NCBI RefSeq assembly: GCF_031082295.1 | Contig: NZ_JAVHLD010000001.1 | Location: forward strand, 1-64,000 | DNA length: 64,000 bases | Source of the DNA: Humidesulfovibrio sp. | Lineage (GTDB): Bacteria > Desulfobacterota > Desulfovibrionia > Desulfovibrionales > Desulfovibrionaceae | Direction: 5' to 3' | Shown here: positions 33,328-49,425 of the stretch, piece by piece | How positions within the stretch are numbered: the stretch's first letter is position 1 | Layout: the number at the start of each line of letters is the position of its first letter | Notes under the pieces: model-generated | What the model saw: the letters and a program-made list of their open reading frames with translations, nothing else | Databases searched by the model: none | What the model was told of the DNA's origin: nothing | Program-made: the position numbers and the translations under genes

Positions 33328-33356
33328 TTGACCACGGCATGTTATTCGCATAGATT
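33328..33356 (+). promoter_or_regulatory. Sigma-70 promoter of the pelEFG operon
   Basis: -35 TTGACC (33328-33333), 17-nt spacer, -10 TAGATT (33351-33356), about 50 nt before the GTG start of pelE. Both hexamers and the spacing agree with the consensus. Confidence 0.65.
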
Positions 33357-33406
33357 ATTCCTACCTATAGCGTATCCGAAAAACTCTATCAGGGGATGAT
33401 TCTGAC

Positions 33407-34474
33407 GTGGACGAGAGCAGCCAGCCGAACAACCGCACAGGCGGGCTCTTCGTTTGGGTCGTGGCGCTGGGGTTGCAGACCGCCTGCCTGTTGTCGGCCT
33501 GGCGCTTTTACACCGGCGGGCAGCCCTTCATGGCGGAGCTGGCCCTTGGGTTGCTTGTGTCCTCTTCCCTGGTCTTCGTCCTCCCCTTGCTGTTTGCCCG
33601 GCACTGGTTCGCCCCGCGCAGCACGGTGTACGGCTTCGCAGCTGCTCTCAGCCTGTGCCTGCCCGGCATAGGCATCATCGGCTGCCTGTTTTCGCTGCTT
33701 TGTGCGCAAGTGGTCATGCGTCAAAAGAACAAGACCAAGGAATTTCTGGAAAGTCTCGAAATGGCGCTGGGCGACGACTCCGGCCGGATCACCCGCAAGC
33801 GCGTGGGGCAGGTGCTGGCGGACGAGATCGCCATCGAGCCCGTGGTGGACGTGCTCAAGGGCGACGACCCCGACCTAAAGCGCGGCGCGGTGAAGCTCTT
33901 GCAGCGCATCGGCACCAGAAGCGCCGTCAGCCTGCTGCGCCAGAGCCTCTCGGACCAGTTCCCGGAGGTCCGCTTCTACGCGCACTCCGCCCTGACCGAG
34001 CTTGAGGACGGCTACACCAAGCGCATTCAGGACATCGAGAAGAATATCGAGCAGGCTCCCAGCGCGGCCTTGTACCGCCTTTTGGGGCAACAGTACCGGG
34101 CCTACGCGGACTCCGGCCTGGCCGACGAGATCGCACGCGGGCAGCACCTGGAAAACTGCCGCGACGCCCTCAACAAAGCCCTTGAGATTGAGCCCGAGCA
34201 CGCCAAGACCATGCTGCTGCTGGCCCAGGCCTTGCTGGACCTGAACCTGCTGCGTGAGGCCTGGCGCCTCTTCGAGAAGTGCACAAGCTACGACGAGACC
34301 GTCTCCGAGGCCCAACTCGGCATGGCACAGATCGCCTACCAGATGCGCGACTTCGGCCAATTGGCCCGGCTGGCGCGCAGCATGGCCAACTCCGAGGCAG
34401 CCCGCCCCGAAAAGGCTGACGCCCTGGAGCTGTTCGAATTCTGGGCAGGCTTGGGCAAGGTGGGCCATGGCTGA
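33407..34474 (+). CDS. pelE: PelE-like membrane protein with HEAT/TPR domain
   Basis: Inner-membrane component of the Pel synthase, 355 residues. Three hydrophobic segments at about 14-35, 43-63 and 73-104 are followed by a cytosolic helical-repeat part: HEAT-like (130-200) and TPR-like (205-330, including LNKALEIEPEHAKTMLLLAQALL). This layout matches PelE, which scaffolds PelD and PelF. The start is GTG with AGGGG 11 nt upstream. The stop overlaps pelF by 8 nt. Identification leans on context, as sequence conservation of PelE is low. Confidence 0.8.
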   Translation: MDESSQPNNRTGGLFVWVVALGLQTACLLSAWRFYTGGQPFMAELALGLLVSSSLVFVLPLLFARHWFAPRSTVYGFAAALSLCLPGIGIIGCLFSLLCAQVVMRQKNKTKEFLESLEMALGDDSGRITRKRVGQVLADEIAIEPVVDVLKGDDPDLKRGAVKLLQRIGTRSAVSLLRQSLSDQFPEVRFYAHSALTELEDGYTKRIQDIEKNIEQAPSAALYRLLGQQYRAYADSGLADEIARGQHLENCRDALNKALEIEPEHAKTMLLLAQALLDLNLLREAWRLFEKCTSYDETVSEAQLGMAQIAYQMRDFGQLARLARSMANSEAARPEKADALELFEFWAGLGKVGHG

Positions 34475-35993
34475 GAAAACCTACGACGTTTGCCTGATTC
34501 TCGAGGGCACGTACCCGTATGTTCCAGGCGGCGTGTCCACCTGGGTCCACCATCTCATCAAGTCCATGCCGGAGCTTTCCTTCACCTCGGTCTGCATCCG
34601 CGCCACGGCCAAGGAAAAGGCCGAGTACCGCTACCAGGTGCCGGACAACTTCGTTGATCCCCGACTCGTCTATCTGCACGACCACGACACGCAGAAAACG
34701 GCCAAGATGAGCAAGAAGAACCGGGCGGAGCTCATGGAGAACATCCGCCTGTGGCACCACAGCGCCGGCAAGGCCGATTCCGGCGGCATCCTTGACCTGG
34801 TTCACGCGCTGGATCGCTCCGGCGGGCAGCTCGACGTGAAGGACATGGTCTTTGGCCGCACGCCCTGGAATATCATGCTTGAGCTTTACAACACCAAGCA
34901 TCCGGACGTGTCGTTCCTGGACTACTTCTGGACGTACCGCTTCACCCACCTGCCCATGTGCAACGTTATCAACGCTAGCCTGCCCAAGGCCAGGGTCTAC
35001 CACACCATCTGCACCGGCTTTGCCGGGCTCATGGCCGTGCTGGCCAGCCTGCGCATGAACAGGCCCATGCTCCTGACCGAGCACGGCATCTACACCAAGG
35101 AACGCAAGATCGAGGTGGCCCAGTCCAAATGGATCCACACCGAGCAGGACGAACGCCTGCGCATCGAGCGCGACCTGGGCACCTTCCAGAACCTCTGGAT
35201 CCATATTTTCGAGACCCTGAGCCGCCTGACGTACGCCCACGCCCACCGGGTCATCACCCTGTTCGAGGGCAACCGCAAAATGCAGATACTTGGCGGCTCC
35301 GACCCGGAACGCACCGAGGTCATCCCCAACGGCATCACCATCTCGCGCTACGAGAATCTGAAGCCGCGCGCCGAGACCATTGTCGACGAACGCAGGGCCG
35401 AGGGACCGTTTGAGATTGGGTTCGTCGGACGCGTGGTGCCCATCAAGGACGTCAAGACCTTCATCCGGGCCATCAAGATCGTCACCCAGGAAGTGCGCAA
35501 CATCCAGGCCTACATCATCGGGCCCGAGGACGAGAGCGAGGAATACGCGCGCGAATGCCACGAACTGGTGCACATGCTGGGCCTGGACAAAACAATCATC
35601 TTCACCGGCAAGGTCAACGTCAACGACTACTACGCCAAGCTCGACCTGCTGGTGCTCACAAGCGTCAGCGAGGCGCAGCCCCTGGTGATCCTTGAGGCCA
35701 ACTGCGCGGGCATCCCTGTGGTGGCCTCGGACGTGGGCGCATGCAGCGAACTGCTGCACGGCCGAACCCCTGAAGACGAAGCCTTGGGACCGTCCGGCTA
35801 CATCACCCGCCCGGCCGAGCCCATGGACACGGCCCAGGGCATCCTGACCATTTTGCTCAACCCCGAGCTGCGCAGGGCCATGTCCATCAGCGCCAGGGAA
35901 CGCGTGACGCGCTTCTACACGGAGGCAGACCTCATCAACAAATACAGGGCGCTGTACAACGAGTGCATGGCGCTCCCAGGCAGGATGGCCTAA
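34467..35993 (+). CDS. pelF: Pel polysaccharide glycosyltransferase PelF
   Basis: Cytosolic GT-B fold transferase (GT4) that polymerises the Pel chain from UDP-sugars, 508 residues, almost the same as Pseudomonas PelF. The start DVCLILEGTYPYVPGGVSTW is the PelF N-terminal signature. TEHGIYTKERKIE and the EX7E pair in EAQPLVILEANCAGIP mark the two nucleotide-sugar motifs. The start lies inside pelE; pelG follows 3 nt after the stop. It is the core of the plus-strand pel operon. Confidence 0.95.
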   Translation: MAEKTYDVCLILEGTYPYVPGGVSTWVHHLIKSMPELSFTSVCIRATAKEKAEYRYQVPDNFVDPRLVYLHDHDTQKTAKMSKKNRAELMENIRLWHHSAGKADSGGILDLVHALDRSGGQLDVKDMVFGRTPWNIMLELYNTKHPDVSFLDYFWTYRFTHLPMCNVINASLPKARVYHTICTGFAGLMAVLASLRMNRPMLLTEHGIYTKERKIEVAQSKWIHTEQDERLRIERDLGTFQNLWIHIFETLSRLTYAHAHRVITLFEGNRKMQILGGSDPERTEVIPNGITISRYENLKPRAETIVDERRAEGPFEIGFVGRVVPIKDVKTFIRAIKIVTQEVRNIQAYIIGPEDESEEYARECHELVHMLGLDKTIIFTGKVNVNDYYAKLDLLVLTSVSEAQPLVILEANCAGIPVVASDVGACSELLHGRTPEDEALGPSGYITRPAEPMDTAQGILTILLNPELRRAMSISARERVTRFYTEADLINKYRALYNECMALPGRMA

Positions 35994-35996
35994 GTC

Positions 35997-37364
35997 ATGG
36001 CAGGCATCGGCTTCGAACTTCGCAAGCTTCTGGATAAGGACAACTTCACGGGCGACCTGCGCGCCTTTCTCTACGCCGCGCTCCTGTCGTCCGGCCCCTG
36101 GCTTCTGTCCATCACCTGCCTGGGCGTGCTCACGGCGCTCTCTTCCACGGGCGGCAATGAGCAGGATGGCGAAGTCTTCCGCACGACGGTGGTCTACGTC
36201 TTCGCCTTCTCGCTCATCTTCGTGGGCATTTTCCAGCTGGTGCTGACGCGCTTTCTGGCCGACAGGCTGTACCTGAAGGACAACGCGGCGCTGCTTTCGG
36301 CCTTTGTGGCCTCGGCCATACTGGTGCTCGTGGGAGGACTGTTCGTGGGGCTGGCCGTATTCCATTCCGGCCCGCTGCCCTGGACCTACAAGGCGCTGGC
36401 CATCATGCTCTTCGACGTGGTCTGCCTGCTCTGGCTCACCATGATCATGCTCTCGGCGGTGAAGGACTATAACAACATCGTCATCGGCTTCGCCGTCGGG
36501 GCCATACTCTCGGTGGGCGGCGTGTGGGCGCTGGAGCCGCTGCTCGGCCTGCACGGGCGCATCCTTGGCTACACCTTGGGGCTTGTGGTCAGCGTATTCT
36601 GGTTCTTGGCCATCATCTTCTCGGAGTTCGACCAGAACACGAAGCTCACCTTCGACGTGGTAAGCTATTTCAAAAAGTACTGGGACCTTGCGCTCATCGG
36701 CTTCGTGTACAACCTGGCCATCTGGTCGGACAAGTTCATGTACTGGATGGACCCCGGCGCCCGAGTCATCGTGGTGCCGCTCACCGTGCACGACTTCTAC
36801 GAAGGCCCGGTGTTTTTGTCCTACCTGAGCATCGTTCCAGCCCTGGCAGTGTTCATGGTCAAGATCGAGACCGGCTTCTACGAGCACTATCGGCGCTACT
36901 ACCAGTGCATTACCGAGAAGCGCCCCCTCTCCGCCCTGCTGGAGGAAAAGGAAGGCATGGCGAACATGCTCAAGGCCAGCATCCGCGAGATGTTCATCAT
37001 CCAGGGCGGCATCTCGACCCTGTGCGTCGTCTTCGCCCCGGAGATCTGCGTCGTGGGCGGGCTTTCCCCGGCCCAGGTGCCGCTGTTGCGCATCAGCTGC
37101 ATCGGCTCGTTCCTGCAGGCGCTCATGTCGCTTACGGTGACCATCCTCTTCTATTTCGACCTGCGCCAGCGCGTCCTGCTCATCAGCCTCTGCTACCTCG
37201 TCCTGAACGCGGGGCTGACCCAGCTGACCCTTTGGCTTGGTTTCCCGTTCTACGGTTATGGCTACACTTACGCCTGCTTCATCTCACTCATGGTCGGCTT
37301 CTACCTGCTGGTGGACACTGTGCAGGATCTGGAGTTCATCACATTTGCGCGTCAACCCATCTAG
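35997..37364 (+). CDS. pelG: Pel polysaccharide membrane transporter PelG
   Basis: Inner-membrane protein of 455 residues with about twelve hydrophobic helices, of MATE/Wzx-like fold. The start MAGIGFELRKLL is shared with known PelG, and length agrees. PelG with PelD, PelE and PelF forms the inner-membrane synthase/translocation complex. It follows pelF immediately and precedes the epimerase gene by 12 nt. Confidence 0.94.
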   Translation: MAGIGFELRKLLDKDNFTGDLRAFLYAALLSSGPWLLSITCLGVLTALSSTGGNEQDGEVFRTTVVYVFAFSLIFVGIFQLVLTRFLADRLYLKDNAALLSAFVASAILVLVGGLFVGLAVFHSGPLPWTYKALAIMLFDVVCLLWLTMIMLSAVKDYNNIVIGFAVGAILSVGGVWALEPLLGLHGRILGYTLGLVVSVFWFLAIIFSEFDQNTKLTFDVVSYFKKYWDLALIGFVYNLAIWSDKFMYWMDPGARVIVVPLTVHDFYEGPVFLSYLSIVPALAVFMVKIETGFYEHYRRYYQCITEKRPLSALLEEKEGMANMLKASIREMFIIQGGISTLCVVFAPEICVVGGLSPAQVPLLRISCIGSFLQALMSLTVTILFYFDLRQRVLLISLCYLVLNAGLTQLTLWLGFPFYGYGYTYACFISLMVGFYLLVDTVQDLEFITFARQPI

Positions 37365-37376
37365 ACAAGGCTTCAC

Positions 37377-38462
37377 ATGAATCCTGACTCCATCACCATC
37401 GAAGAAAAGCTAGAGCACATTGCGGGAAAAACCTGCCTGGTGACCGGCTGCGCAGGCTTCGTGGGCAGCCACCTGACCCAGAGCCTGCTCGACATGGGGC
37501 ATCGCGTCATCGGCGTGGACAATTTCTTCTCCGGCAAGCCGGAAAACATGCAACCCTTCATCACGCATGAGCGCTTCCTTTTCGTCGAGCGCTCCATCGC
37601 CGAGCCCATGCTGTTCGAGGAGCTCTTCAATGAGCATGCCCCGATCCGCGCGGTCTTCCATCTGGCGGCCATCGTGAGCGTGCCCTACTCCATGAACCAC
37701 GCCGACGAGACGTACGACATCAACTTCCTTGCCACAGAGCGGCTGCTCGCGGCGGCGGAAAAGCACGGCGCCACGCGCCTGGTCTTTGCCGGGTCCGCGG
37801 CGGAATACGGCACCGAGGACCGCATGCCCGTCAAGGAGATATACGCGAACGACGATACCCTCCAGCTAAGCCCCTACGGCACCGCAAAGTACCTGTCCAC
37901 CCGCGCGGTCAGCACCAGCCCAATCGGCGTCTCGCTGCGCTTCTTCAACATCTTCGGCCCGCGCCAGGATCCGTCCAGCCCCTACAGCGGCGTCATCTCC
38001 AAGTTCATGTCCCAGGCGCTGACCGACCAGTCCCTGACCATTTTCGGCGATGGCCAGCAGACGCGCGACTTCGTGTATGTGCACGACGTGGTGCTCGCCT
38101 ACCTGACGGCGGCCGGGATGATCGGGGAGAAACTCCTGCCTAGCGGCGTGTACAACATCGGCACCGGCAAGGCCGTGAAGATCGTCGGACTGGCGCGCAT
38201 CGTGCTCATCCTGTCGGACAAGCCCAACGCCATCGTGCTGGACATCGGGCCGACCGAGAACCTCATGGTTGGGGGCGATCCGGTCTGCCTGTTCTATCCC
38301 TCGCGCGAGGGTGACATCGTGCACTCTGTGGCGGACATATGCGAGATGACGACCAAGTCCGACTGGAAGGCGGAAACTGTGCTGAGCGTGGGCCTGGCAC
38401 GGACCATCGCCTGGTACCGGCAGGAGCTGGCCAAGGCTCAGGCCGCAAAGACGAGCGACTAG
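37377..38462 (+). CDS. NAD-dependent sugar epimerase, PelX-like
   Basis: Short-chain dehydrogenase/epimerase of 361 residues. The Rossmann signature is TGCAGFVGSHL, and the catalytic YxxxK lies in LSPYGTAKYL after AGSAAEYG. This fits UDP-sugar 4-epimerases and dehydratases of the GalE/WbpP class. In some Pseudomonas species an epimerase named PelX makes UDP-GalNAc for Pel; position as the last gene of pelEFG suggests the same job here. The substrate is inferred, not shown. It ends 9 bp before the convergent EAL/HDOD gene. Confidence 0.88.
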   Translation: MNPDSITIEEKLEHIAGKTCLVTGCAGFVGSHLTQSLLDMGHRVIGVDNFFSGKPENMQPFITHERFLFVERSIAEPMLFEELFNEHAPIRAVFHLAAIVSVPYSMNHADETYDINFLATERLLAAAEKHGATRLVFAGSAAEYGTEDRMPVKEIYANDDTLQLSPYGTAKYLSTRAVSTSPIGVSLRFFNIFGPRQDPSSPYSGVISKFMSQALTDQSLTIFGDGQQTRDFVYVHDVVLAYLTAAGMIGEKLLPSGVYNIGTGKAVKIVGLARIVLILSDKPNAIVLDIGPTENLMVGGDPVCLFYPSREGDIVHSVADICEMTTKSDWKAETVLSVGLARTIAWYRQELAKAQAAKTSD

Positions 38463-38471
38463 GGCAAGAGG

Positions 38472-39725
38472 CTAGTTCAGGAAAGAGAAGATGGCGTGCG
38501 CCCACTGCATGGATTCGGTGTAGCAGGCAGCCACCACCACGGGGTCGATCCCCAGGGCCTCGAAACGCGACGAAAGATCATCCCATTCGGCGCGCTCAAA
38601 ACTGTGCACCAACTGAAGCCAGGGGACCAGGGGGGTAGGCTTCAGGCACAGGGTATCCTTGAGCTCCTGGTCCAGCGGCAGCGAGCCGACAATGTCAATC
38701 ATCTGCATGTCGAAGATGCTGTCCAGCAGCGAGAACAGCCCGAGCAGCAACATGCGCTCGGAGTTCACGCGGCGCCCGCCCGTGCGCTGGGCCGCAAGCT
38801 CCAGAAAGCGCCCGCGCTGGGCGGAGAGAAAAACCAGCTCGTTCGGCTTGTGCTTGGGCTTCATCTCCGTGATGAGCACCAGCCGGAGCCAGGTGCGCAT
38901 CTGCTGCCAGCCGGCCAGGATCAGCGCGACCTTGATGGAAGAGACCTCGCGCGCGAAGCCGAAATAGGGCGAGTTCAGGAACTTGAGCAGCCGGTAACTC
39001 AGGGACACGTCCTTCTGGATGGCCTGGGCCAGGGCGCTTATGTCTGGATCCTCACGCTCAAGCATCTGCAAGATGCCGAGGCTTCCGGCGAGGCTTGACG
39101 AAACGACCTTGCTCGAGATGCGCTCCGGCTTTTGGAAGAAGAAGCCCTGAAACAGGCTGCAACCGGCGTTCTTGGCGACGGTGAAGGTCTGCACGTCCTC
39201 CACCTTTCTGGCCATGATCTGCACCGGGTGTTGCCCCTGCTGCCTGCGGACCGCCTCGAAGAGCTCATCGAGGTTGGCGCGCTGCATGTCCACGGCGATG
39301 ATGTCCATCATGTTCAGCAGCGAAGCGCCCTCGACCTGGCCTGTATAGTCGCTCAGCGCCATGAGATAATTCTCCTGGCGCAGGTTCAGCAGAGTGTCAT
39401 GCATGCCCGGCGCGAAGAGGGCCTCTTCGGAAAGGGTGAATACGGACCGGCCCTTGGGCAGCACTCCGGTGATGCTGGAGGATGCTGTATTGGGGTCCAG
39501 AGTGACCATCAGATAGGAGTTCGGGCTTTGCTGCCACTGGGGGCTGAGGAACGCCCTTGTGGCCACTTCCAGCATGGTCTTGTGGTCCGTCGCGCCCTGG
39601 GCGTGCTCCAGACTCTGGCGGTAGAGGATCTCATAGCCCCAGATGTTGCGCTTGATGTCAAACAGCGCCTGCCGCGCGATAAAGCCCTGGTAGAATGCCG
39701 GATCGACGGGGGGAGTCGTGTTCAT
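38472..39725 (-). CDS. Degenerate EAL plus HDOD signalling protein
   Basis: A 417-residue YuxH-type protein. Residues 10-200 form an EAL-like domain: YEILYR stands where active enzymes have E-A/V-L-L-R, and other catalytic segments are altered (SDYTGQ, ARKVED), so phosphodiesterase activity is unlikely. Residues 205-400 form an HDOD domain (ISALAQAIQKDVSLSYRLLKFLNSPYFG), a protein-interaction module. It is the last gene of the minus-strand pel operon, 25 nt after pelD. It could relay a signal to the c-di-GMP-dependent Pel complex, but that is inference. Confidence 0.88.
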   Translation of the reverse strand: MNTTPPVDPAFYQGFIARQALFDIKRNIWGYEILYRQSLEHAQGATDHKTMLEVATRAFLSPQWQQSPNSYLMVTLDPNTASSSITGVLPKGRSVFTLSEEALFAPGMHDTLLNLRQENYLMALSDYTGQVEGASLLNMMDIIAVDMQRANLDELFEAVRRQQGQHPVQIMARKVEDVQTFTVAKNAGCSLFQGFFFQKPERISSKVVSSSLAGSLGILQMLEREDPDISALAQAIQKDVSLSYRLLKFLNSPYFGFAREVSSIKVALILAGWQQMRTWLRLVLITEMKPKHKPNELVFLSAQRGRFLELAAQRTGGRRVNSERMLLLGLFSLLDSIFDMQMIDIVGSLPLDQELKDTLCLKPTPLVPWLQLVHSFERAEWDDLSSRFEALGIDPVVVAACYTESMQWAHAIFSFLN

Positions 39726-39750
39726 TCCTGTTGCAGCTCTCTTGCAGCGC

Positions 39751-41193
39751 TCAAGCTCGCGCTAGACCCGTTTCTCCCCCCTTCTTCGCGTCCAGGTCCG
39801 TCAATGCGGCCGCAAGGATGAGTTCAGGGGTGTTGTTCGTTTCATCAAAGGCGCTGACGCCCATGCCGACCGGCAACGACCCGGTGACGGAAGCCACCAC
39901 GCCGCCCAGGTCGCCGACCATGGTCACGATCTTTCCGCCCACGACCTTTGCGCCGACGAGCGGTGTGTTCGGCATGAGGATGATGTAGCGGCCCGGCACG
40001 TCTCCAGAGAAAAGCAGGTCGATGTTCCTGAGCAGCGTCTTCAAGGCCTTGCTGAGCTGCGTGAGGATCTCCCGCTGTTCCTCTTCTGAGTAATCAACAT
40101 ATCCCAGGATGTCCAGAATGATCATGGCAAGATCAGTCTTGTAGCGTCTGGCACGGGCGCACTCCTCCAAGAGCCGGGCATTCATGTAGTTGATCGTGTA
40201 GGCGCCGGTGATGTCGTCGGTGATGGTCTTGGACTTGGTGTCCGTGTAGAGCAGCGCGTTTTCCAGCGCGTCCGCGCACCAGCCGGAAAACACCTCGGCC
40301 ATGCGGATGGTCTGGGAGTTGAACTTGAGGAAGGGCAGCCTCTCGATGCTGAGCACCCCGAGGACCTTGCGGCTGCTGGTCAGCAGAGGCGCGGCGATGA
40401 GGGCGTCGCCATCCGGCAGGACGCCCTTCTCGTACATCTCGAGCAGCACGTTGGCGGAGGCCACATGAGTGCTGGTGAAGGCGCGGCCGAGGAGACCGTC
40501 GTCCGGGAGAAGGCTCTCCGGGCGCGTGCGGTTTTGCAGCTCGCCGTGCACGGCCTTGAGCTTCAGTTGGCCGTCCTCAAAAAGATAGATGGAGCTCGCC
40601 TCCGCGCCCAGGAACTTGGCCACCATGTCCAGTGCCGCCGGATAGAGTTCGCCCTCGCTCAGCGAGCGCAGCGCCTGGGCCGTCTCGTGCATGGTGGTCA
40701 GGGTCTGCTCCTGGGACAGGATGCGCGTGTCGACCTCCTGCTTGGCCTTGACAACGGCGTCGTAGCGCTCGCGCAGCTTGTCGAAGGTTTCCTTGAGTTC
40801 CTCGTGCTCGTCCAGCAAGGCCTCGTAGCGGCTCTTGATGGTCTGGCTGATCTCGCCCAGGGTGCAGCCAACAGCGATGAAGAGGACAGGCTCGCCCAGG
40901 AGCAGCTTCCACAGCTCATAGATTGTGGTGCCTTGCCGCCCGATGATGGAAAGCCCGATGGCCAGCGCCGCGGAGACGATGCCGCTGAACAGCCCGGCCA
41001 GAAAGCCGTAGCGCGACGCCAGCAGCAGCACCACCGCCCAGTACGGATGCGGGCTGACCCCCACAAAGCCCAGATTGGCACGGAACCACATGACGTTCAC
41101 GGCAGTGATCAACGCAAAGCCGAGCAGGGCCTCGACAATGTAGCCCATGGACGATGATTTCCCCGGGCGTGCGATCAGACGATTCCTGTCCAT
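39751..41193 (-). CDS. pelD: c-di-GMP receptor PelD (GAF + degenerate GGDEF)
   Basis: Inner-membrane receptor of 480 residues that switches on Pel synthesis. About four hydrophobic helices (17-115), a coiled coil (118-165), a GAF domain (about 175-310) and a GGDEF-fold domain (315-465). In the last, RNID at 389-392 is the RxxD c-di-GMP inhibitory site, whereas the catalytic GGDEF is replaced by SGDVP at 396-400. This is the PelD pattern: ligand binding without cyclase activity. The start at 41193 has a poor Shine-Dalgarno; ATG at 41148 is an alternative that keeps all domains. Confidence 0.93.
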   Translation of the reverse strand: MDRNRLIARPGKSSSMGYIVEALLGFALITAVNVMWFRANLGFVGVSPHPYWAVVLLLASRYGFLAGLFSGIVSAALAIGLSIIGRQGTTIYELWKLLLGEPVLFIAVGCTLGEISQTIKSRYEALLDEHEELKETFDKLRERYDAVVKAKQEVDTRILSQEQTLTTMHETAQALRSLSEGELYPAALDMVAKFLGAEASSIYLFEDGQLKLKAVHGELQNRTRPESLLPDDGLLGRAFTSTHVASANVLLEMYEKGVLPDGDALIAAPLLTSSRKVLGVLSIERLPFLKFNSQTIRMAEVFSGWCADALENALLYTDTKSKTITDDITGAYTINYMNARLLEECARARRYKTDLAMIILDILGYVDYSEEEQREILTQLSKALKTLLRNIDLLFSGDVPGRYIILMPNTPLVGAKVVGGKIVTMVGDLGGVVASVTGSLPVGMGVSAFDETNNTPELILAAALTDLDAKKGGETGLARA

Positions 41194-41197
41194 ACTG

Positions 41198-42718
41198 CTA
41201 CCACACCCAATAGAACTTCGCGCTGTAAGTGCTCGACTCGCCGCCGCCGGTGGTGTCGGCCTCGCTGGCGTAATCCCAGCCGATCTCCAGGCGCATGCGC
41301 TGCACGGGCCTGAAGGTGAACTTGGGGCTCAGCTGCACGGCCTCGACCTTGCGCTTGTAGTCGTGCTTGATGCCGCCGCTCACGGAGCCCTCCAGCCAGG
41401 AGAAGAACGGATAGCTAACCGTCAGAGTGCCGCCGTGGCTCTCCTCGCGACGGAGCAGGTCAAAGGGGATCTCGACGTTGGGCTGCGACTCGGCGCGCTG
41501 GTACGTGTAGGTCGCATAGACGTCGGGACGCGTCCAGAGGCGCCTGGTCAGGCTGGCTGTGCCTTCCCAGCGGTAGCCCGCGTCGTCCAGGTCGCTCAGC
41601 CGATAGGAATCCCTGGTGTATCCGGCGTAGGCAACCCAGACATCACGGAAGGGAACCTCATATTCGGCCTGGAAGCGATCCCTGGAGCCACGCAGGGGCA
41701 CGGCGTCCATGTTGTCGTACCAGGGGGCGTGGAAGGTGAAGCTTGCCCTGGCCCGGCCATAGCGCTCGAAGTTGTATCGCGCCCCGACCATCGGCGAGAG
41801 GCCGTCGCCCAGCCCGAGGTAGCTTTGCAGGCCCACGTCGAGGGTGATGCTGCGGTTGAATTCATGCTCGATGCGCGCGCCAAAGGCGCTCAGATCCTCG
41901 CGAATGCCGTTCACGTCATCCGGGCGCGAGAGGTGCACCTGGTTGTAGTCGATGAACAGGCGGGTGTGGTCGCCCGTCTGGGCGGACCAGCCAGTGGACC
42001 ATGTGGTGGTCTGGGTCTTCTTGCCCTGGTCGTACAAGCTCACGCCGGCCTCGAACCTGGGCCGCTTCTCCAGCAGCATCCCGTGCAGGGCGTCCTTGGC
42101 GGCCTGGTTGTCAGGATCAAGCTCCAGCACCTGCGAGAAGGCCTGGATGGCGCCGTTGATGTCACGACTGGCCTGGCGCTGCACGGCAAGATCGCTCCAC
42201 AGGCCGGTGTCGCTGGGATTGCCGCGCATGGCGCGCTCGAGAATGTCGAGCCCGTACTGGGGCTTTTCCAGCTCGGCGTAGAGTCCGGCCTCGATGCGTT
42301 CGGAACGCGAGGTGCTCCCGAACTTCTTGCGGAACTTGACCAGCTCGAACAGCGTGCGCTCGTACTGGGCGTTGGCGACCAGGGTCTCCAGAAAGTCCTC
42401 GTAGACCTCCACGTCGTTTGGATATTCCAGCCGCAACTGCTCGTACAAGGCAAGGCTCTTTGGGAAATCACCCTGGCGGCTCAGAATGCGCGCCTCCATG
42501 AGCGCCATCTGGCGTTCCGTGAGGGGCTCGTCCTGGTCGCGCACGGCGCGCTGGGCCGTTGCGTTCGCCTGGGCCGTTGCCTGCGTGGGCGATGGCGCCC
42601 CTGTTAAAGTCGGCTCCATGGCCGGAGCTTCCGCCGTGGCCGGGACCTGGGCCAGCGCCAGCGCCTGCCAGGTCAACACAAGCAGAACGGCCATGGTGCG
42701 GATATGCGAGCGGGTCAT
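41198..42718 (-). CDS. pelB: PelB outer-membrane beta-barrel, separate gene
   Basis: Export pore of 506 residues. A signal peptide (hydrophobic core 8-20, cleavage near ALAQ) precedes a few TPR-like helices (65-185), then about 310 residues of alternating strands ending in SAKFYWVW, a terminal aromatic residue typical of outer-membrane proteins. This corresponds to the C-terminal barrel of PelB. In Pseudomonas the barrel and the TPR scaffold are one ~1190-residue protein; here it is a separate exported product. Its ATG overlaps the stop of the TPR gene (ATGA), so production of both halves is coupled. Confidence 0.87.
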   Translation of the reverse strand: MTRSHIRTMAVLLVLTWQALALAQVPATAEAPAMEPTLTGAPSPTQATAQANATAQRAVRDQDEPLTERQMALMEARILSRQGDFPKSLALYEQLRLEYPNDVEVYEDFLETLVANAQYERTLFELVKFRKKFGSTSRSERIEAGLYAELEKPQYGLDILERAMRGNPSDTGLWSDLAVQRQASRDINGAIQAFSQVLELDPDNQAAKDALHGMLLEKRPRFEAGVSLYDQGKKTQTTTWSTGWSAQTGDHTRLFIDYNQVHLSRPDDVNGIREDLSAFGARIEHEFNRSITLDVGLQSYLGLGDGLSPMVGARYNFERYGRARASFTFHAPWYDNMDAVPLRGSRDRFQAEYEVPFRDVWVAYAGYTRDSYRLSDLDDAGYRWEGTASLTRRLWTRPDVYATYTYQRAESQPNVEIPFDLLRREESHGGTLTVSYPFFSWLEGSVSGGIKHDYKRKVEAVQLSPKFTFRPVQRMRLEIGWDYASEADTTGGGESSTYSAKFYWVW

Positions 42719-45279
42719 TGGGGCACGCTCCTTGCGGCGTTTTTGCCTGCCGCCCTGGCCTGCCTGGCCTGGCGGATGAGGCTCAATGTCTTCTTGTATT
42801 CCCCGGAGGCCTCGCCTTCGCGGTCAGTCGAGAAATACAGCTCGCCCAACTGGTAGCGGGCTTCGATGTCCTTGGGATTCTGCACGCGGTAGTGCTCAAA
42901 GCCCTTGATGGCGCGCTCGGCGTCGTTGTTCCAGGCATGGATCTGCGCCTGGCCCTTGAGCGCGGCCCGGTTGCGCGGATCGACGCGCAGCGCGGCGGCG
43001 TAGCAGTCCATGGCGAAGTCCATGCGCTTGCTCAGCACGGCCATGTCGCCTATGGCAGCAAGCCGCACGGCGTCGGACTCATAGTCGCTCTTGAGACGGC
43101 GCATGGCCTGCTGGGTCAGCTCCAGGCGGTTCATGAGGGTGTAGGTCTGCACCAGAAGCGCGCCAGCGTCCCAGGGGATTGGCTTCATGTTCTCGAAACG
43201 CGCCAGCACCGCCAGGGCCTTCTGGCTCTGCTTGCGGTCCAGGTAGTGCTGGGCCACGAACACGGCCTCATCCTCCGTGAGCAGGCCGCGCGCGGCCAAA
43301 GGCTCCAGGGTGGCGGCCTGCCGGTCCACATAGCCCAGCCAGCCGAAGGTCTCCGCCAGCAGGCGGCGCACCTCGATATCGTCCGTCTTGAGCGCCAGCG
43401 CCCGCTCCAGGTACGGCAGGGCGCGCTTGGGCGCATTGGCGGCCAGGAAGGCCTCGGCGGTCTGTCTGGCCTTCTGGAGATTATGCGGCTCGCGGTCGGA
43501 GTCCTCGGCCAGGAGCGCGGCGCTCTCGCTGGTGCGCCCGGTCCACTCGGCCAGGCGCATGAAGTTCTCCCGCGCCTTCCTGTCCTTGGGATTCTGGCGG
43601 TAGATCTCTGCGTAGATGCGGAAGGCGTCGTTGTCCTTGCCCGCCTCCTCGGCGTAGCCCGCGGCGAGCTTCAGCAGGGCCTTGTCGCCGGGGTAGGCCG
43701 TGAGCAGCCTTTCCACCACGCCGAAGGCCAGGTCCGGGGCTTCGCGCCAGGAGTGCACCTGGGCCAGCTTGAGCGCGGTGGCGCGGTCGCCTGGGCTGCG
43801 GGCCAGATAACGCTGGTACACCGTGGCCGCGCCCTTGAGTTCGCCGTTGTCCGCCAGCATGTCGGCTACTTCGAGCAGCAGCGCAGTGTCCGCGAAGTCC
43901 GGCCGCTCGATGAGGGCCAGCACCTCGCGCATGGTGGCCGGGTTGTTGGTCTGCGACGCGGCCTGCACGGCCTTGCGGATGAGCACCGGGTCTCCGCCGG
44001 AGTTGGCGGCAAGGGAACGCAAGATCCCCCAGGCCTCCACCGGGCGGTTCACGTCCAGCCAGGCGTCGGCCAGCTTCATGCCGACCACGGAATCACTCTG
44101 GGCCATGTCCTTCACGGCAAGCGCCGCGCCCGCCACGGCCTCGGGACTTCTTGTGCCGCCAGCGGCGTCGAGCAGCAGGTTGGCCTCGCCCACCGTGCCA
44201 ACGGGCAGCGGCTGCAGCATGGCGTAGGCCTCGGGGGCCCGGTTGGACGCGAGCAGCGCCTCGCCCAGCAGGCGCCTGGCGTCCGTGTTGGCGGGGTCGA
44301 GCTCGATGACGCGCTGCAGATGCTTCACCGCGTCGAGCGGCAGGTTGGCGTTCAAAGCCATCTCGGCCAGGCCGCGCAGCAGGTTGGCGTCGTTCGGCCT
44401 CTCCTTGACCAGATCGGACATAAGCTGCGCGGCTGGTTTCTCGGCGCCATAACCGCCAAGGGCCACGGCCACGGCCAGGCGCGAGTTGGCGCCGCCGTCC
44501 TGCTGGTCGAGAAGCGTGGCCAGTTGCACGGCCTCCTGCGTCAGCCCGCCGCGAACGAACAGCTCCAGGGAGTCGTTGACGAAAATAATCTCAATCTGCG
44601 CGGTGGCTGCCCCTTCCAGGACATTCTCCAAATAGCCGCGCCGGAGGTTGTAGGCGTCAACCAGGAGGGCGCGGGCCACGGCGTCGTCATTTTTGGAGAC
44701 ATCGGCGGAAAGGGCCTCAAGCACCCTGCTGATCAGCTGCAAGGGCTTCCTGCTGGCGATCTCCTTGGCCACCACGACCTTGTCCAGCGGGATGAGGCGC
44801 TGCACGGTCGTGTACATGGCCTCGCGGTCGCCCTGGTAGGTGTAGTTCGAAAGCAGATGCAGCAAGACCTCGCGCCGGTTGGCGTAGGTTTCGGGCTTGC
44901 GCTCGTTCAGCTCGGGCATGACCTGGAGCGCGGCCTCCATGCTCTCGTTGGCTTCCTGGGGATGCCCAGCCCATTCCTGCCATTCGGCCAGGCGCAGGAT
45001 CAATTCCTTCCGGCCGGGCCGAAGCTGCATGACCTTTTTCAAGAGGTCGATGGCCTTTTCCACCTCGCCGTCGGAGTGGGCGAGCTCGGCCGCGTCCATG
45101 ATCAGGTCAGGATCATTGGGATGCATGGCCAGCAGCCGTCCCAGCATGACCCTGGCCAGGGCCGCCTTGTTGTCGTTGATGTAGATGGAAATGAGCGTGC
45201 GCGGGCCTGGAAACACCAGCCACGTAGCCCCCACGATGAGGACGACGAAAAGGATGGTCTGCCAGGCGCTTATCTTCAT
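42715..45279 (-). CDS. pelB: PelB periplasmic TPR scaffold, separate gene
   Basis: An 854-residue protein. One N-terminal transmembrane helix (about 7-25) anchors a long periplasmic solenoid. More than a dozen TPR-like repeats follow, such as ALARVMLGRLLAMHPNDPDL and DAVKHLQRVIELDPANTDAR. In Pseudomonas this part of PelB binds PelA and guides the polymer. No barrel follows; the protein ends in a basic tail (RQARAAGKNAARSVPQ). GGAGG lies 10 nt before the ATG, which overlaps the stop of the deacetylase gene. Confidence 0.87.
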   Translation of the reverse strand: MKISAWQTILFVVLIVGATWLVFPGPRTLISIYINDNKAALARVMLGRLLAMHPNDPDLIMDAAELAHSDGEVEKAIDLLKKVMQLRPGRKELILRLAEWQEWAGHPQEANESMEAALQVMPELNERKPETYANRREVLLHLLSNYTYQGDREAMYTTVQRLIPLDKVVVAKEIASRKPLQLISRVLEALSADVSKNDDAVARALLVDAYNLRRGYLENVLEGAATAQIEIIFVNDSLELFVRGGLTQEAVQLATLLDQQDGGANSRLAVAVALGGYGAEKPAAQLMSDLVKERPNDANLLRGLAEMALNANLPLDAVKHLQRVIELDPANTDARRLLGEALLASNRAPEAYAMLQPLPVGTVGEANLLLDAAGGTRSPEAVAGAALAVKDMAQSDSVVGMKLADAWLDVNRPVEAWGILRSLAANSGGDPVLIRKAVQAASQTNNPATMREVLALIERPDFADTALLLEVADMLADNGELKGAATVYQRYLARSPGDRATALKLAQVHSWREAPDLAFGVVERLLTAYPGDKALLKLAAGYAEEAGKDNDAFRIYAEIYRQNPKDRKARENFMRLAEWTGRTSESAALLAEDSDREPHNLQKARQTAEAFLAANAPKRALPYLERALALKTDDIEVRRLLAETFGWLGYVDRQAATLEPLAARGLLTEDEAVFVAQHYLDRKQSQKALAVLARFENMKPIPWDAGALLVQTYTLMNRLELTQQAMRRLKSDYESDAVRLAAIGDMAVLSKRMDFAMDCYAAALRVDPRNRAALKGQAQIHAWNNDAERAIKGFEHYRVQNPKDIEARYQLGELYFSTDREGEASGEYKKTLSLIRQARQARAAGKNAARSVPQ

Positions 45280-47447
45280 GGCGCGGCAACCTCCAGATTC
45301 CCGCTGCGCAGGCCAGCAATGTCGACGAAACCGGCGGCATCGACGCGCGCGTTGGCGGGCTTGGCCAGTGCGGTTCCGCTGGCCTGCAGCGTTGCGCCGG
45401 GCGCAAACCCCGCCAGACGGATGCGACCCGCTGCGCCGAAGCCGTTGTAGCCCAGCGACACCCTGCCCTTGCCCGGCCTGAAGTCCGAGACATGGCCCGT
45501 GGCCTCGGCCAGATACGGCAACGGCTCGGGCTTGCCCGTCCTCGGCTCGAAGGACAGCACGGCCCTGTCCGCCCCAGGCGCCAGGGACACGTACAGCCCC
45601 TCCTTCTGCCGGGAATACCCCAGGACGTTCTGCGAGCGCTCCAGGTTGGGCGCTGGCGCGTCGGCGTCCAGACGCAGGGTCAGGCTCTTGCCATAGTTCT
45701 CGATGTGATAGACTCCAGGCCCTGCGCGCAGGACGCGGACCTTGATGTAGTCGCGCGCGGCCTCCAGGTACTGGGTGGTGAACACCGGGGCCAGCGGCAG
45801 GGTCATGACGAAGCCGTACACGTCTTCCAAGGCCCGCACCGAGGCCTCGTGCTCTCCGCTGAAGAAGTGGTAGTAGATGTCGATGGGCTTGAGCCGCCTG
45901 GGCGAGCCAGTGCGCTTTATGGTCTCGATGACCGCGCGGTAGCCGTAGAACGGCCCGGTCCAGAGATTGGTCATGACGTTCTCGTTGGCCATGGCCGTGA
46001 ACATCTGCACCCTGTTTCCCACCACACGGAACATGGGCGAGACGCTGGACAAGGAGTTGCTCCGCTGGTCCAGCATGGTGTCGCCGCCGTTGATGTTGAA
46101 CAGGCCCTGGTCGTCGACGCGGGCGATCTGCTGCGCCGTGGGCAAGCAGTCGCCCGACCACTGGAGCAGGCGGCAGGGCTTGTCCGGCGGGCTGAGCGAG
46201 CTGACGAACCGCATGGACCCGTCGATCTCCTGGGCCAGATTGAAGGTATACCCAGGGATCTTGTAGGGGAACCGGTTCTCGTACCTGGTCTTTGTCTTGC
46301 CCTTCTCGTTCCAATAAAACGGATGCGAATACGTGTGGCTTCCCGGCTCGACGTTGGGCATGCGGAACAGTTCCCGCGCAACGTCCTGGGCCTGCCTAGC
46401 GCGCTTGGAGTCGGTGGCGATCTTGGGGTCCACGTCTGCCACGATGAGCGAGAGGGTCACCGGAAAGTTGACGCGCTTGTAGATGCGGTCGCGCAGGACC
46501 TCGGCGCACATCTGCTTGCTGCCCACCTGCGAATACCCGGCGAAGCCGTCGGCATCCACATGGGAGAAGGCCATGCGCAGGCCGTTCAGCGTTGTCACGT
46601 CCGGGACGGGGATGTTGCGCCCCTTGAGACCGAAGCAATCCGCCACGAAGGCGAAGGGATCCAGGTACCACTTCCGGCGGTTGTCGCCTGTGGACTCCTC
46701 CCAGTAGATATGATGCTCCGCAGCGAACCCGCCGGATGCGCCGACGAACACGGCAGGATACTCCTTGCCGGGACGAGCCGGGTGCTTCAGGCTCGCGTAG
46801 ACCTTGAGGTCGGGGCTCTTCTGCTCGAAAAAGCTGGTGACGACGGGCTGCGGCGGCAGCCGACGCTCGAAGTCCATGAGGCCCGGCGCCTTGTGGGCGT
46901 AGCGAAAGGCGCGCTGATCCAGACCCAGCAGGCTGGACGGGGCCACGCCAAGCTGCGCGAACACCGCGCGCGAAAGCTGGTCCACATCGGCGAAGTCGGC
47001 CCCCTGGGCCAGAGACACGCCGAGATGCCCGAGAATCATGACGCGCTTGCCCGCCTTGAGCTGCCTGAGCAGCCAGGGCAGATAGGGCCGTGGCTTGCGC
47101 ACCGCGTTCTGGCCGAGGGTCGTGACCACGCCAAGGGTGTCGGACATGGCCGCGTCATCCGGCAGCGCCTGCGAGTTGATGTCCTGGAAATAGGGTACGA
47201 GGCCGTAGTAGTCGAAGACCATCTGGAAGCCCTGGTGCACGATGTTGTCGTCAGGGCCGGCCCCTGCGGAGCCGTCGTACAGCACGAGCACCCTGCGCGG
47301 CACAAGCTCCGGCGCCGCGGGCGCAGTCTTGCCGCCCGCCTTGGCCGCCAGGGCGCAAAGGGGAAGCAGGGCCAGCGCGAACAGGCAGAGGAGGCTAGCG
47401 GTCCAGCGTGTGATAGAACACCTGGTCCAGCGCAAGCGTGCTGACAT
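45276..47447 (-). CDS. pelA: PelA deacetylase part, separate gene
   Basis: Periplasmic polysaccharide deacetylase, 723 residues. An N-terminal hydrophobic stretch (about 16-35) serves as signal or anchor, followed by a reductase-like Rossmann domain (50-160) and a CE4-type domain. Metal motifs are HVDAD at 296-300 and HTYSH at 371-375. The C-terminal ~150 residues are beta-rich. It matches the second and later domains of Pseudomonas PelA. Its 5' end overlaps the hydrolase gene by about 50 nt; ATG at 47447 is preferred over TTG at 47456, with AGGA 11 nt upstream. Confidence 0.87.
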   Translation of the reverse strand: MSARLRWTRCSITRWTASLLCLFALALLPLCALAAKAGGKTAPAAPELVPRRVLVLYDGSAGAGPDDNIVHQGFQMVFDYYGLVPYFQDINSQALPDDAAMSDTLGVVTTLGQNAVRKPRPYLPWLLRQLKAGKRVMILGHLGVSLAQGADFADVDQLSRAVFAQLGVAPSSLLGLDQRAFRYAHKAPGLMDFERRLPPQPVVTSFFEQKSPDLKVYASLKHPARPGKEYPAVFVGASGGFAAEHHIYWEESTGDNRRKWYLDPFAFVADCFGLKGRNIPVPDVTTLNGLRMAFSHVDADGFAGYSQVGSKQMCAEVLRDRIYKRVNFPVTLSLIVADVDPKIATDSKRARQAQDVARELFRMPNVEPGSHTYSHPFYWNEKGKTKTRYENRFPYKIPGYTFNLAQEIDGSMRFVSSLSPPDKPCRLLQWSGDCLPTAQQIARVDDQGLFNINGGDTMLDQRSNSLSSVSPMFRVVGNRVQMFTAMANENVMTNLWTGPFYGYRAVIETIKRTGSPRRLKPIDIYYHFFSGEHEASVRALEDVYGFVMTLPLAPVFTTQYLEAARDYIKVRVLRAGPGVYHIENYGKSLTLRLDADAPAPNLERSQNVLGYSRQKEGLYVSLAPGADRAVLSFEPRTGKPEPLPYLAEATGHVSDFRPGKGRVSLGYNGFGAAGRIRLAGFAPGATLQASGTALAKPANARVDAAGFVDIAGLRSGNLEVAAP

Positions 47448-48264
47448 AGGGCACAAATCCTTTGCTGCGTGAATAGTCGATTGCCTCTTTAATGCGGGCC
47501 TTCTGGTCCGGTTTCGCGTAGTCGAGGGTCAGCACGGTCAGCTCCGGGTTGGCGGCAAGCCCCCGGCGCGCCGCGGCAACCAGGGCCTGTTGCACCTGCT
47601 TGGGTACAGCACGGTACTCCTTCTTCTCAAAGTCGTACTCGAACGAGAGATCTTCAATCAAAAGCGAATTGATGATGGGCGCGGCGTCCGGCAGGAGGTC
47701 GAGCCCCCGGTTCATGCAGATGTGAATGTCCGGGAAGCGCTCCCTGATCGTGCGCAGGAAGCCGAGGATGCTCGCGCGCATGCCCTCGTACTTGGCCGCG
47801 TCCTTGCCCTCGGCCAGGGCCATGGCCGAGTCGATGGTGTCGAGGAAGATGCCGTCGAAGCCCTGGGCCAGCACCTTGGGGATGACCAGATCGAGCAGGA
47901 TGCCCTGCCACTTGGGGCTGCGCATGTCGATGATGAGCGAGCCCCAGTTCTCGTTCTTCCCGGCGATGAAGCTCTGGTGCTGGGCAAGCATCCAGGTGGG
48001 GCTGGACGGATCTGACTCGCCGACGGTGACGTAGCCGAGCAGCAGCGGTTTGCCCGGCTCCTTGCGCTCCAGCGGCGGGTGCTTCATGCCGTCCAGCACC
48101 ACCAGATCGAAGCGTCCGTAGTGCGCAGGCCCGAAGTCGGTGCCGTAGTAGCACAGCCAATTCCTGTAGCGCGGGGCCTGGGCGCCCTGCGCGTCGTGAG
48201 CGGCGACGGGCAGCAGTCCCGCCAGCGTAAGCAGCAGCGTACAGAGCAGATGGCGCCTGATCAT
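47395..48264 (-). CDS. pelA: PelA glycoside-hydrolase part, separate gene (GH114-like)
   Basis: Exported 289-residue TIM-barrel protein. A signal peptide ends near residue 29. The barrel starts WLCYYGTDFGPAHYGRFDLVVLDG and includes GFDGIFLDTIDSAMAL. A candidate catalytic glutamate is E204 in LLIEDLSFEYDF, by analogy with E218 of Pseudomonas PelA. The domain is an endo-alpha-1,4-N-acetylgalactosaminidase in PelA and can cut Pel. Being separate from the deacetylase, it could be regulated or released independently. GGAGAAG precedes the ATG. Confidence 0.88.
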   Translation of the reverse strand: MIRRHLLCTLLLTLAGLLPVAAHDAQGAQAPRYRNWLCYYGTDFGPAHYGRFDLVVLDGMKHPPLERKEPGKPLLLGYVTVGESDPSSPTWMLAQHQSFIAGKNENWGSLIIDMRSPKWQGILLDLVIPKVLAQGFDGIFLDTIDSAMALAEGKDAAKYEGMRASILGFLRTIRERFPDIHICMNRGLDLLPDAAPIINSLLIEDLSFEYDFEKKEYRAVPKQVQQALVAAARRGLAANPELTVLTLDYAKPDQKARIKEAIDYSRSKGFVPYVSTLALDQVFYHTLDR

Positions 48265-48286
48265 GTCGACTTCTCCACCGTTCCGG

Positions 48287-48841
48287 CTACTTCAACTTCG
48301 AGGCCAGGGTCTTGACCATGTCTGAGCAGACCATATGCGCCAGCGAACTGAGCGAGGTGCGACCCGAGTACATGGAGCCGGTGGCGGTGACGCTCTCGGC
48401 CCAGAGGATGCGCGTCTCGGGGATGTCCAACATTTTGACGGAGATGCCCACCACGGGATCCTCGTCCACGCCCTTCTTGTAGCGGTACTCGGTCACAGCG
48501 CCATAGATGACTGTGTCCACACCCAGCGAACGGCCGACCTTGGCGGCGGCGGACTTCTCCAGCACCTCCTCCACCTCGATCTTGCCGCTGGACAGATGCT
48601 CCATCATTTCGGAACGTTCAAGCATCCTGAAGTCCGTCTGGGCGATGATCTCCGTGCTCAAGAGCTCGCCCACGATGCGGCCCGCGTTGGGCATGGAGGT
48701 CAGGTTCACCAGAGGCAGCACGACGACTTTGCGCGCACGCGAGTTCAACTGGGCCTGGTCGAGCGCCGTGGTGCGCTGGATCGTGCCACAACCAGTGACA
48801 AGGAACAGAGACAGTACGAGTAAACAGATGGCCCGCCGCAT
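48287..48841 (-). CDS. pelC: PelC outer-membrane lipoprotein
   Basis: Lipoprotein of 184 residues with lipobox LVTGC (cysteine 18). The rest is an alpha/beta domain with VVVLPLVNLTSMPNAGRIVGELLSTEI and LGVDTVIYGAVTEYRYKKG, as in PelC and other CsgG-like proteins. PelC forms a periplasmic ring under PelB that funnels the charged polymer. It is the first gene of the minus-strand pel operon. GGAGGG lies 8 nt before the ATG. Confidence 0.88.
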   Translation of the reverse strand: MRRAICLLVLSLFLVTGCGTIQRTTALDQAQLNSRARKVVVLPLVNLTSMPNAGRIVGELLSTEIIAQTDFRMLERSEMMEHLSSGKIEVEEVLEKSAAAKVGRSLGVDTVIYGAVTEYRYKKGVDEDPVVGISVKMLDIPETRILWAESVTATGSMYSGRTSLSSLAHMVCSDMVKTLASKLK

Positions 48842-48872
48842 AATGAAACCCTCCGAATGAAATCTACATCAA

Positions 48873-48907
48873 ATTATATTCCAGGCATTTGCAGTCAACC
48901 AAATGCC
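48873..48907 (-). promoter_or_regulatory. pelC promoter with overlapping palindromic operator
   Basis: Minus strand -10 TATAAT (48873-48878) with -35 TTGGTT at 18 nt (48897-48902), or TTGACT at 14 nt. Over the -35/spacer lies a perfect inverted repeat, GGCATTTG-N8-CAAATGCC at 48884-48907. The position suggests a repressor or FleQ-like regulator site. Confidence 0.65.
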
Positions 48908-49349
48908 CAAGCTGGTGAACCCGTTTCCACCGGATCACGCCCTATTGCCATCGACCAATAAAATCAAAACATCACCAATAACTATTAATCGGTCTGGTCC
49001 TTTCAAAGATTTAGATGCACGGGATACGTATCCGCGCACTTCTTCAGGCAAAATCTGCCCGCTCAATTTTTTCTCAAATAAGCACGAAGCATGCCATGTA
49101 TAGGATGTGGTTCTGCAAGCAGGAGGAGACACACGCCTCGTGGCTCTACAGAAAGCATCAGGATTTCGCAACCGTCATAGAAATTTTCAATACTGCAGGA
49201 TCGTCTCATTTGCTCGCCAGCAGGCAAAGACAAATCAAATGAATTCGTGCCGACAGGTCCTGTGCGACAAAAGGTTGGGATAATGTCGGTTCGCATGCAA
49301 AAATTTCTTGCCAACGCAGGGGGGCTTGGATTAGACAATCCTTCCCTGT
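48908..49349 (+). other. AT-richer noncoding stretch between pelC and tRNA-Val
   Basis: About 440 bases with no convincing gene. Short open frames on both strands lack Shine-Dalgarno sequences and resemble nothing known. Composition is clearly richer in A+T than the flanks, with a T-run at 49068-49073. It probably holds upstream regulatory sequence for pelC and the promoter of tRNA-Val. Confidence 0.6.
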
Positions 49350-49425
49350 GGGCGATTAACTCAGCGGTTAGAGTGCCACCTTCACACGGTGGAAGTCCCG
49401 AGTTCAAATCCCGGATCGCCCACCA
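49350..49425 (+). tRNA. tRNA-Val (anticodon CAC)
   Basis: A 76-nt cloverleaf: acceptor GGGCGAT/ATCGCCC, D-arm AACTCAGCGGTTAGAGT, anticodon stem CCACC/GGTGG with loop TTCACAC (anticodon CAC), T-arm CCGAGTTCAAATCCCGG, A73 and encoded CCA. Confidence 0.95.

Follow-up and report, generated by a model that had tools for sequence, protein, structure and literature searches.

Why would a bacterium encode the synthase and the export path of one exopolysaccharide machine as two operons running toward each other? This question is raised by a Pel locus of Humidesulfovibrio sp. (Desulfovibrionaceae; assembly GCF_031082295.1), found in the first 64,000 nucleotides of contig NZ_JAVHLD010000001.1. We refer to this whole stretch as the window; it lies on contig C11 of a draft genome totaling 3.45 Mb. 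The machinery itself is known and ordinary, and the convergent arrangement is a genus-level local variant. Specifically, the locus probably represents a standard Pel machine gated by cyclic di-GMP (c-di-GMP), whose synthase block was inverted and acquired a new promoter in a single genus.

We first established what is encoded. A complete Gram-negative Pel system occupies positions 33407–48841, with 11 open reading frames that are all intact and located where the original prediction, made from the sequence alone, had placed them. The plus strand carries pelE, pelF, pelG, and an epimerase gene, while the minus strand carries, in its own reading direction, pelC, the pelA hydrolase, the pelA deacetylase, the pelB TPR and porin halves, pelD, and an EAL-HDOD gene, with the convergent stops (38462/38472) separated by 9 bp. 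The predicted division into a rightward pelEFG-epimerase unit and a leftward remainder was thus confirmed, as was the presence of all seven Pel functions, now based on models, structures, and family profiles. The order was also correctly described as different from pelABCDEFG of Pseudomonas: two converging units replace the single operon that is typical, but not defining, of Pel systems. The features of the locus and its borders are as follows.

32663..32756, plus strand: tRNA-Sec, left border of the inserted segment
33328..33356, plus strand: sigma-70-like promoter sequence TTGACC-N17-TAGATT, 5' of pelE (scan and conservation)
33407..34474, plus strand: pelE, membrane helices with HEAT and TPR repeats (family model, relatives)
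34470..35993, plus strand: pelF, GT4 glycosyltransferase (NF038011, PF11997)
35997..37364, plus strand: pelG, inner-membrane exporter (PF16933)
37377..38462, plus strand: NAD-dependent sugar-nucleotide epimerase, PelX/GalE-like (PF01370, solved epimerases)
38472..39725, minus strand: degenerate EAL plus HDOD signaling protein (PF08668; PF00563 below cut-off)
39751..41193, minus strand: pelD, membrane part, GAF, and degenerate GGDEF with RxxD (RNID) (GAF match, family model, alignment)
41198..42718, minus strand: pelB porin half, with signal, TPR, and 16-stranded barrel (predicted fold compared to the PDB)
42715..45264, minus strand: pelB TPR half, N-terminal membrane helix (general TPR matches, place, relatives)
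45276..47447, minus strand: pelA deacetylase half (PelA 9cgy)
47395..48264, minus strand: pelA hydrolase half, GH114-like/GH166 (PelA 5tcb)
48287..48841, minus strand: pelC, outer-membrane lipoprotein (solved PelC)
49081..49096, minus strand: sigma-54-like -24/-12 site TGGCATGCTTCGTGCT, 5' of pelC (consensus match and conservation)
49350..49425, plus strand: tRNA-Val, right border of the inserted segment

Next, we evaluated the identity of each product. For PelF and PelG, considered strong from the start, the dedicated models win clearly: PelF scores 511 bits against NF038011 (cut-off 100) and 278 bits against PF11997, and PelG 460 bits against PF16933 (cut-off 29). PelC and PelE had originally leaned on context. 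PelC now matches solved PelC structures (5t10/5t11, expect value (E) 2.3e-13; 9h80_C, E 4.1e-11), while PelE is backed by its position immediately 5' of pelF and by a family model built from related loci, which scores the PelE of Pseudomonas and Halopseudomonas at ~53–67 bits, i.e., a weak but repeated match. The GT4 synthase, exporter, lipoprotein, and membrane/TPR protein expected of a Gram-negative Pel system are thereby all accounted for. Besides its TPR repeats, PelE displayed a HEAT-repeat match, observed again in the PelE of genome G152. The epimerase scores 172 bits against PF01370, with 6dnt as the best solved epimerase; the Pel system of P. aeruginosa also includes pelX.

PelA and PelB are likewise complete, each distributed over two genes instead of one. 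Alignment of the PelA deacetylase half to PelA 9cgy (E 3.3e-76) starts at residue 413 and includes the HxDxD and SHTxSH motifs, which hold catalytic and metal residues (PMC12022489). The hydrolase half matches PelA 5tcb (E 1.1e-25) and keeps the glutamate that is altered in the variant entry 5tsy, so that both expected PelA activities are represented with catalytic residues. For the PelB porin half, a single-sequence fold was unusable (predicted local distance difference test (pLDDT) 42), and we instead relied on a fold from 23 aligned sequences (mean pLDDT 84) showing TPR helices and 16 strands. Among PDB matches to this fold, PelB in its complex with PelC ranks first (9h80_M, template-modeling (TM) score 0.57/0.71). 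The PelB TPR half yielded general TPR matches only in Pfam and NCBIfam, and its identity rests on place and relatives; together, the two genes provide the TPR scaffold and the outer-membrane barrel of PelB.

PelD is the weakest named enzyme by single-sequence search. It includes a GAF domain (PF13492, 51 bits) and a GGDEF match below cut-off, and no PelD model matched in Pfam or NCBIfam searches. In the PDB, PelD chains were recovered on the GAF part at E ~1e-4, behind an unrelated GGDEF chain (6zxm, E 6e-7). On the other hand, a family PelD model scores Pseudomonas-type PelD at ~50–68 bits, and its RNID motif lines up with RGLD in the Pseudomonas-type proteins, with no GGDEF signature, i.e., GAF, degenerate GGDEF, and RxxD are all found. 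The initial view of pelD as strong from sequence therefore stands for the family model and the RxxD alignment, and fails for the direct searches; PelD is also the only one of PelD, PelF, and PelG for which another family partly outscored Pel. In P. aeruginosa PelD, R367, D370, and R402 are required for c-di-GMP binding (PMC2170427). From its sequence, the protein encoded here likely binds c-di-GMP as well.

Is this layout a distinct Pel subtype of deltaproteobacteria, as originally proposed? To answer this, we surveyed 297 Desulfovibrionales genomes, detected PelG in 33, and mapped these 33 loci with models built from the window proteins, using stretches around the loci of the 32 other genomes. 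Gene order was scorable, i.e., pelD and pelF both scored >30 bits, for 29 loci (all except G142, G201, G027, and G051). pelD and pelF share one strand in 24 of these. The five in which they lie on opposite strands (G000, G084, G191, G211, and G250) coincide with the full set of Pel-bearing genomes in this genus and are, among the loci found in the order, the only ones with an inverted E-F-G-epimerase block. The usual layout is one collinear unit, pelC-AH-AD-B(TPR)-B(porin)-D-E-F-G-epimerase (AH and AD, hydrolase and deacetylase parts of PelA), which apart from the leading pelC keeps the A-B-D-E-F-G order of Pseudomonas; in G076, G170, G285, G206, and G190, AH is missing between C and AD, and a GH gene is located elsewhere nearby. 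The subtype proposal was accordingly rejected: in the genomes surveyed, the convergent layout is limited to five members of one genus.

Within this genus, the arrangement is consistent. The convergent stops are spaced by 9 (G000), 9 (G084), 38 (G191), 17 (G211), and -17 bp (G250), and a single contig spans the complete order in G000, G191, and G211; in G084 and G250, the contig stops short of pelC. That five species share this order argues against coincidence or an assembly error, and the layout is neither confined to one strain nor, in the window, associated with broken genes. Beyond the order, a scan of named genomes with the PelF alignment retained 80 loci of 543 relatives, 67 of which hold both pelD and pelF. 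Across several phyla, these two genes share a strand in 66 of the 67, and the single exception (L122) is no additional case, as it matches G191 and is one of the five genus loci. Among the papers listed by a literature search that lacked most subscription journals, none treats a convergent pel operon, judging by title.

The gene splits, by comparison, are widespread. Judging from model hits, pelA is also encoded as two halves in Rhodospirillales, Acidobacteriota, Calditrichota, and Lambdaproteobacteria, and pelB in Rhodospirillales, Lambdaproteobacteria, and Rokuibacteriota; pelB fission has already been reported (PMC7112194). We thus rejected split pelA and pelB as a special feature of this group. 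Other loci of the order displayed variations of their own. In 15 of the 16 loci of another genus (g13; e.g., L034 4613–5572), a second GH114-like hydrolase gene is divergent to pelC, the contig of the 16th ending there. This copy is additional to the pelA-hydrolase gene, and G076, G170, and G285 show the divergent copy only. In G027, from another family (C5 around 76688, L088–L089), PelF and PelG group with gammaproteobacterial Pel and the order is pelE-pelF-pelG-pelA-deacetylase, which suggests a separate transfer. Finally, the Pel genes of G051 (C22:1–8000, L094–L095), a 43% complete genome, are fragmented and contain stop codons, through either decay or poor assembly.

Once inverted, the synthase block would depend on a promoter of its own, and it appears to have a sigma-70-like one. 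The TTGACC-N17-TAGATT site 5' of pelE was detected once by the scan, compared to a mean of 0.0 in shuffles, and is conserved in all five Pel genomes of the genus (≤3 substitutions; in G084, one base of the second hexamer is changed). At ≤3 mismatches, it has one match in its own genome. The site 5' of pelC is of a different type: TGGCATGCTTCGTGCT (TGGCATG-N4-GTGCT) matches 10 of 12 scored positions of the sigma-54 consensus TGGCACG-N4-TTGCW, with GG-N10-GC spaced -24/-12 elements near the Desulfovibrio consensus tGGcacg/tTGCt, and sigma-54-dependent exopolysaccharide operons are known from D. vulgaris (PMC4641369). It is kept in four of the five genomes (G000, G084, G191, and G211), where it forms the best conserved 16-column stretch of the four-genome alignment outside the tRNA-Val leader, and such a site is missing from all 24 pelC upstream regions scanned in other genera, two of which are short (253 and 155 bp). 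As a background, 61 sites with at least this score occur in 2,187,198 bases on both strands, genus included. From these patterns, we infer that both sites may function as promoters.

A terminator-like hairpin was detected in the pelC leader (48881–48910, minus strand; 1 found for 0.6 expected), at a position that is a gap in the other three aligned leaders. A terminator between the convergent ends was rejected, since 9 bp (-17 to 38 bp in sister genomes) leave no room for it; with overlapping 3' ends, the two transcripts would be antisense to each other unless stopped inside genes.

How did the locus arise? Of the 15 genomes in the genus, 5 encode PelG and 10 do not. The gap between tRNA-Sec and tRNA-Val spans 16,593 bp in the window genome, compared to 120 (G219), 79 (G193), 113 (G269), 115 (G257), 648 (G053), and 2,590 bp (G005) in the six Pel-free genomes that this comparison covers (G287, G297, G298, and G299 being outside it), and tRNA-Sec or its neighborhood also flanks pelE in each of the other four Pel genomes. 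A mobile element with att repeats was rejected as an explanation for this site: no integrase was found among ten flanking frames scanned, and the two flanks share no direct 12-base repeat and a single inverted 12-mer. Composition does not support a recent foreign origin either, with a guanine plus cytosine (GC) content of 63.7% for the locus and 64.9 and 66.3% for the flanks. In G137, from another genus, tRNA-Sec is located ~10 kb from pelG (L090 7488–7580). To the right of the border, positions 50068–51980 encode a dTDP-glucose-dehydratase-like gene, with orthologues at 83–91% identity in 12 other genomes of the genus, and rmlD.

The 2,590-bp gap of the Pel-free G005 is informative, as the parts of it that match the window encode EAL-HDOD and a DUF188 protein. 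G005 groups with three Pel genomes (support 100/100) in a tree of the rpoB region, covering 12 of 15 genus genomes, and with four (99/99) in a tree of the rfbB region, covering 13 of 15; the Pel genome G191 falls outside this group both times. Most simply, G005 would thus have lost pel and kept the HDOD gene. In the rfbB-region tree, the Pel-free G299 is placed just outside the group holding G005 and the Pel genomes. The EAL-HDOD gene of G005 (L116 14605–15852; G005:C8:363604–364851) is a likely footprint of this loss.

The same gene gives rise to the alternative that best survives, i.e., that EAL-HDOD is unrelated to Pel and merely located at this site. Its product scores 58 bits against PF08668 (HDOD) and 25.5 bits against PF00563 (EAL; cut-off 31.3), and, by eye, the EAL part is missing most catalytic residues. 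Persistence without pel in G005 fits independence from Pel, especially as the gene is under purifying selection there: the ratio of non-synonymous to synonymous substitution rates (dN/dS) is 0.30–0.41 in the five pairs with G005, compared to 0.20–0.35 in the ten other pairs. However, among the 15 genomes, a close orthologue (≥76% identity) exists only in the five Pel genomes and G005, and all 20 loci of two other genera (16 of 16 in g13, 4 of 4 in g5) carry, behind the final pel gene, a gene for a distinct, HDOD-only protein. We therefore consider independence from Pel quite possible, if not favored, and a role of EAL-HDOD in Pel is suggested by these associations.

The HDOD-only gene forms a tandem pair in 8 of the 16 g13 loci and scores 201 bits in G152; its model had no match in G137, G150, G190, G201, G206, G234, G027, and G051, some of these loci being truncated at the end of a contig. 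Based on strand and architecture, the two kinds are not one gene moved: a simple inversion starting from the g13-type order and taking EAL-HDOD with it can be rejected by reasoning, because the strand of EAL-HDOD would then oppose that of pelD. SadB is known to affect Pel in P. aeruginosa. This Pseudomonas HDOD protein binds c-di-GMP (PMC6543031). It is conceivable, though rather doubtful, that HDOD proteins constitute a standing Pel control module in Desulfovibrionaceae, with two kinds recruited independently, and that, through the inverted layout with its two promoters, a sigma-54 signal can direct assembly of the export path independently of the polymer synthase.

A second alternative concerns direction: the convergent order may be the older one and the collinear order derived, or an already convergent locus may have been received from an unsampled donor. 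In the PelF plus PelG tree, the five genomes form a clade that is the first branch of the Desulfovibrionales-type Pel group (100 in the Shimodaira–Hasegawa-like approximate likelihood-ratio test, SH-aLRT) on a long stem (0.54), in a quick search for which the program flagged long branches. This placement, along with a patchy distribution (5 of 15 genomes) in an insertion site, is compatible with both versions. Yet the collinear state is likely the older one because pelD and pelF lie on the same strand throughout the remaining sampled lineages, including the other 66 named loci, and the GC content of the locus is close to that of its flanks; we regard either version as unlikely. Inversion of the E-F-G-epimerase block within this genus is, from the gene orders compared, the simplest account. 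Lastly, degeneration of the system or a polymer other than Pel, with split and rearranged genes as signs of decay, would agree with the absence of Pel from 10 genus genomes and its most likely loss in G005, but is highly improbable given intact reading frames in the window, catalytic motifs kept in both PelA halves, the same gene splits in several phyla, and conserved promoter-like sites.

Several observations nonetheless weigh against inversion and re-promotion of a c-di-GMP-gated machine. The direction of the rearrangement rests on parsimony, and five genomes of one genus are non-independent witnesses. The Pel-free G298, a genome of 73% completeness, pairs with the Pel genome G191 (81/82) in the tree of the rpoB region. 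The sigma-54-like site reaches only 10 of 12 positions, with GTGCT instead of TTGCT, and was not found in the 397 bp preceding the contig end in G250, even though the tRNA-Val spacing of three of the four site-bearing genomes would place it within these 397 bp. Finally, in our reading of the alignment, PelD keeps the RxxD pair and carries a lysine at the R402 position.

Given this balance, we propose the following working for an inverted and re-promoted Pel machine. The predicted epimerase would supply UDP-N-acetylgalactosamine (UDP-GalNAc), which PelF would polymerize, and PelD-E-F-G would move the chain across the inner membrane upon binding of c-di-GMP to the RxxD site of PelD. Guided by the PelB-TPR protein, and modified and trimmed by the separate PelA deacetylase and hydrolase, the chain would then exit via the PelB porin inside the PelC ring; judging by this machinery, the polymer would be Pel, a chain of partly deacetylated alpha-1,4 GalNAc. 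The inversion would have taken pelEFG out of read-through behind pelD, leaving the envelope block C-A-B-D-HDOD served by the sigma-54-like promoter, of another type than that of the synthase block. With two promoter types, polymer synthesis and the building of the export path could be switched separately, while PelD and c-di-GMP would act as a common gate of both halves.

Taken together, this genus would offer a natural experiment in operon architecture, in which an exopolysaccharide synthase and its export machine were uncoupled and for which collinear relatives, unoccupied insertion sites, and the likely secondary loss in G005 serve as comparison material. In addition, HDOD proteins emerge as candidate Pel-linked regulators in sulfate reducers, a group whose biofilms are relevant to metal corrosion.

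Among known systems, the nearest relatives by sequence after the genus itself are the collinear Desulfovibrionales loci, e.g., of Desulfovibrio sp. UBA2564 and Halodesulfovibrio sp. SZUA-473. These encode the same proteins, but on one strand, with HDOD-only after the epimerase instead of EAL-HDOD after pelD, and with no sigma-54-like site found before pelC. Pel genes likewise occur in other sulfate reducers, the Seep-SRB1a/1g partners of anaerobic methanotrophic archaea (ANME), for whose pel operon PelA, E, F, G, and a PelD-like protein are named (PMC10553843). In Bacillus cereus (pelDEADAFG, with separate pelAH and galE), the PelA hydrolase and deacetylase are also separate genes and an epimerase gene lies beside the operon, whereas the system is Gram-positive and PelB and PelC do not figure in its description (PMC7112168). 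Compared to P. aeruginosa Pel (pelABCDEFG), the locus described here has PelA and PelB as two genes each, pelC first, the E-F-G-epimerase block inverted and convergent, and an EAL-HDOD gene included, while it shares the seven functions plus epimerase, a PelD with RxxD and degenerate GGDEF, and a PelA and PelC recognizable in solved structures.

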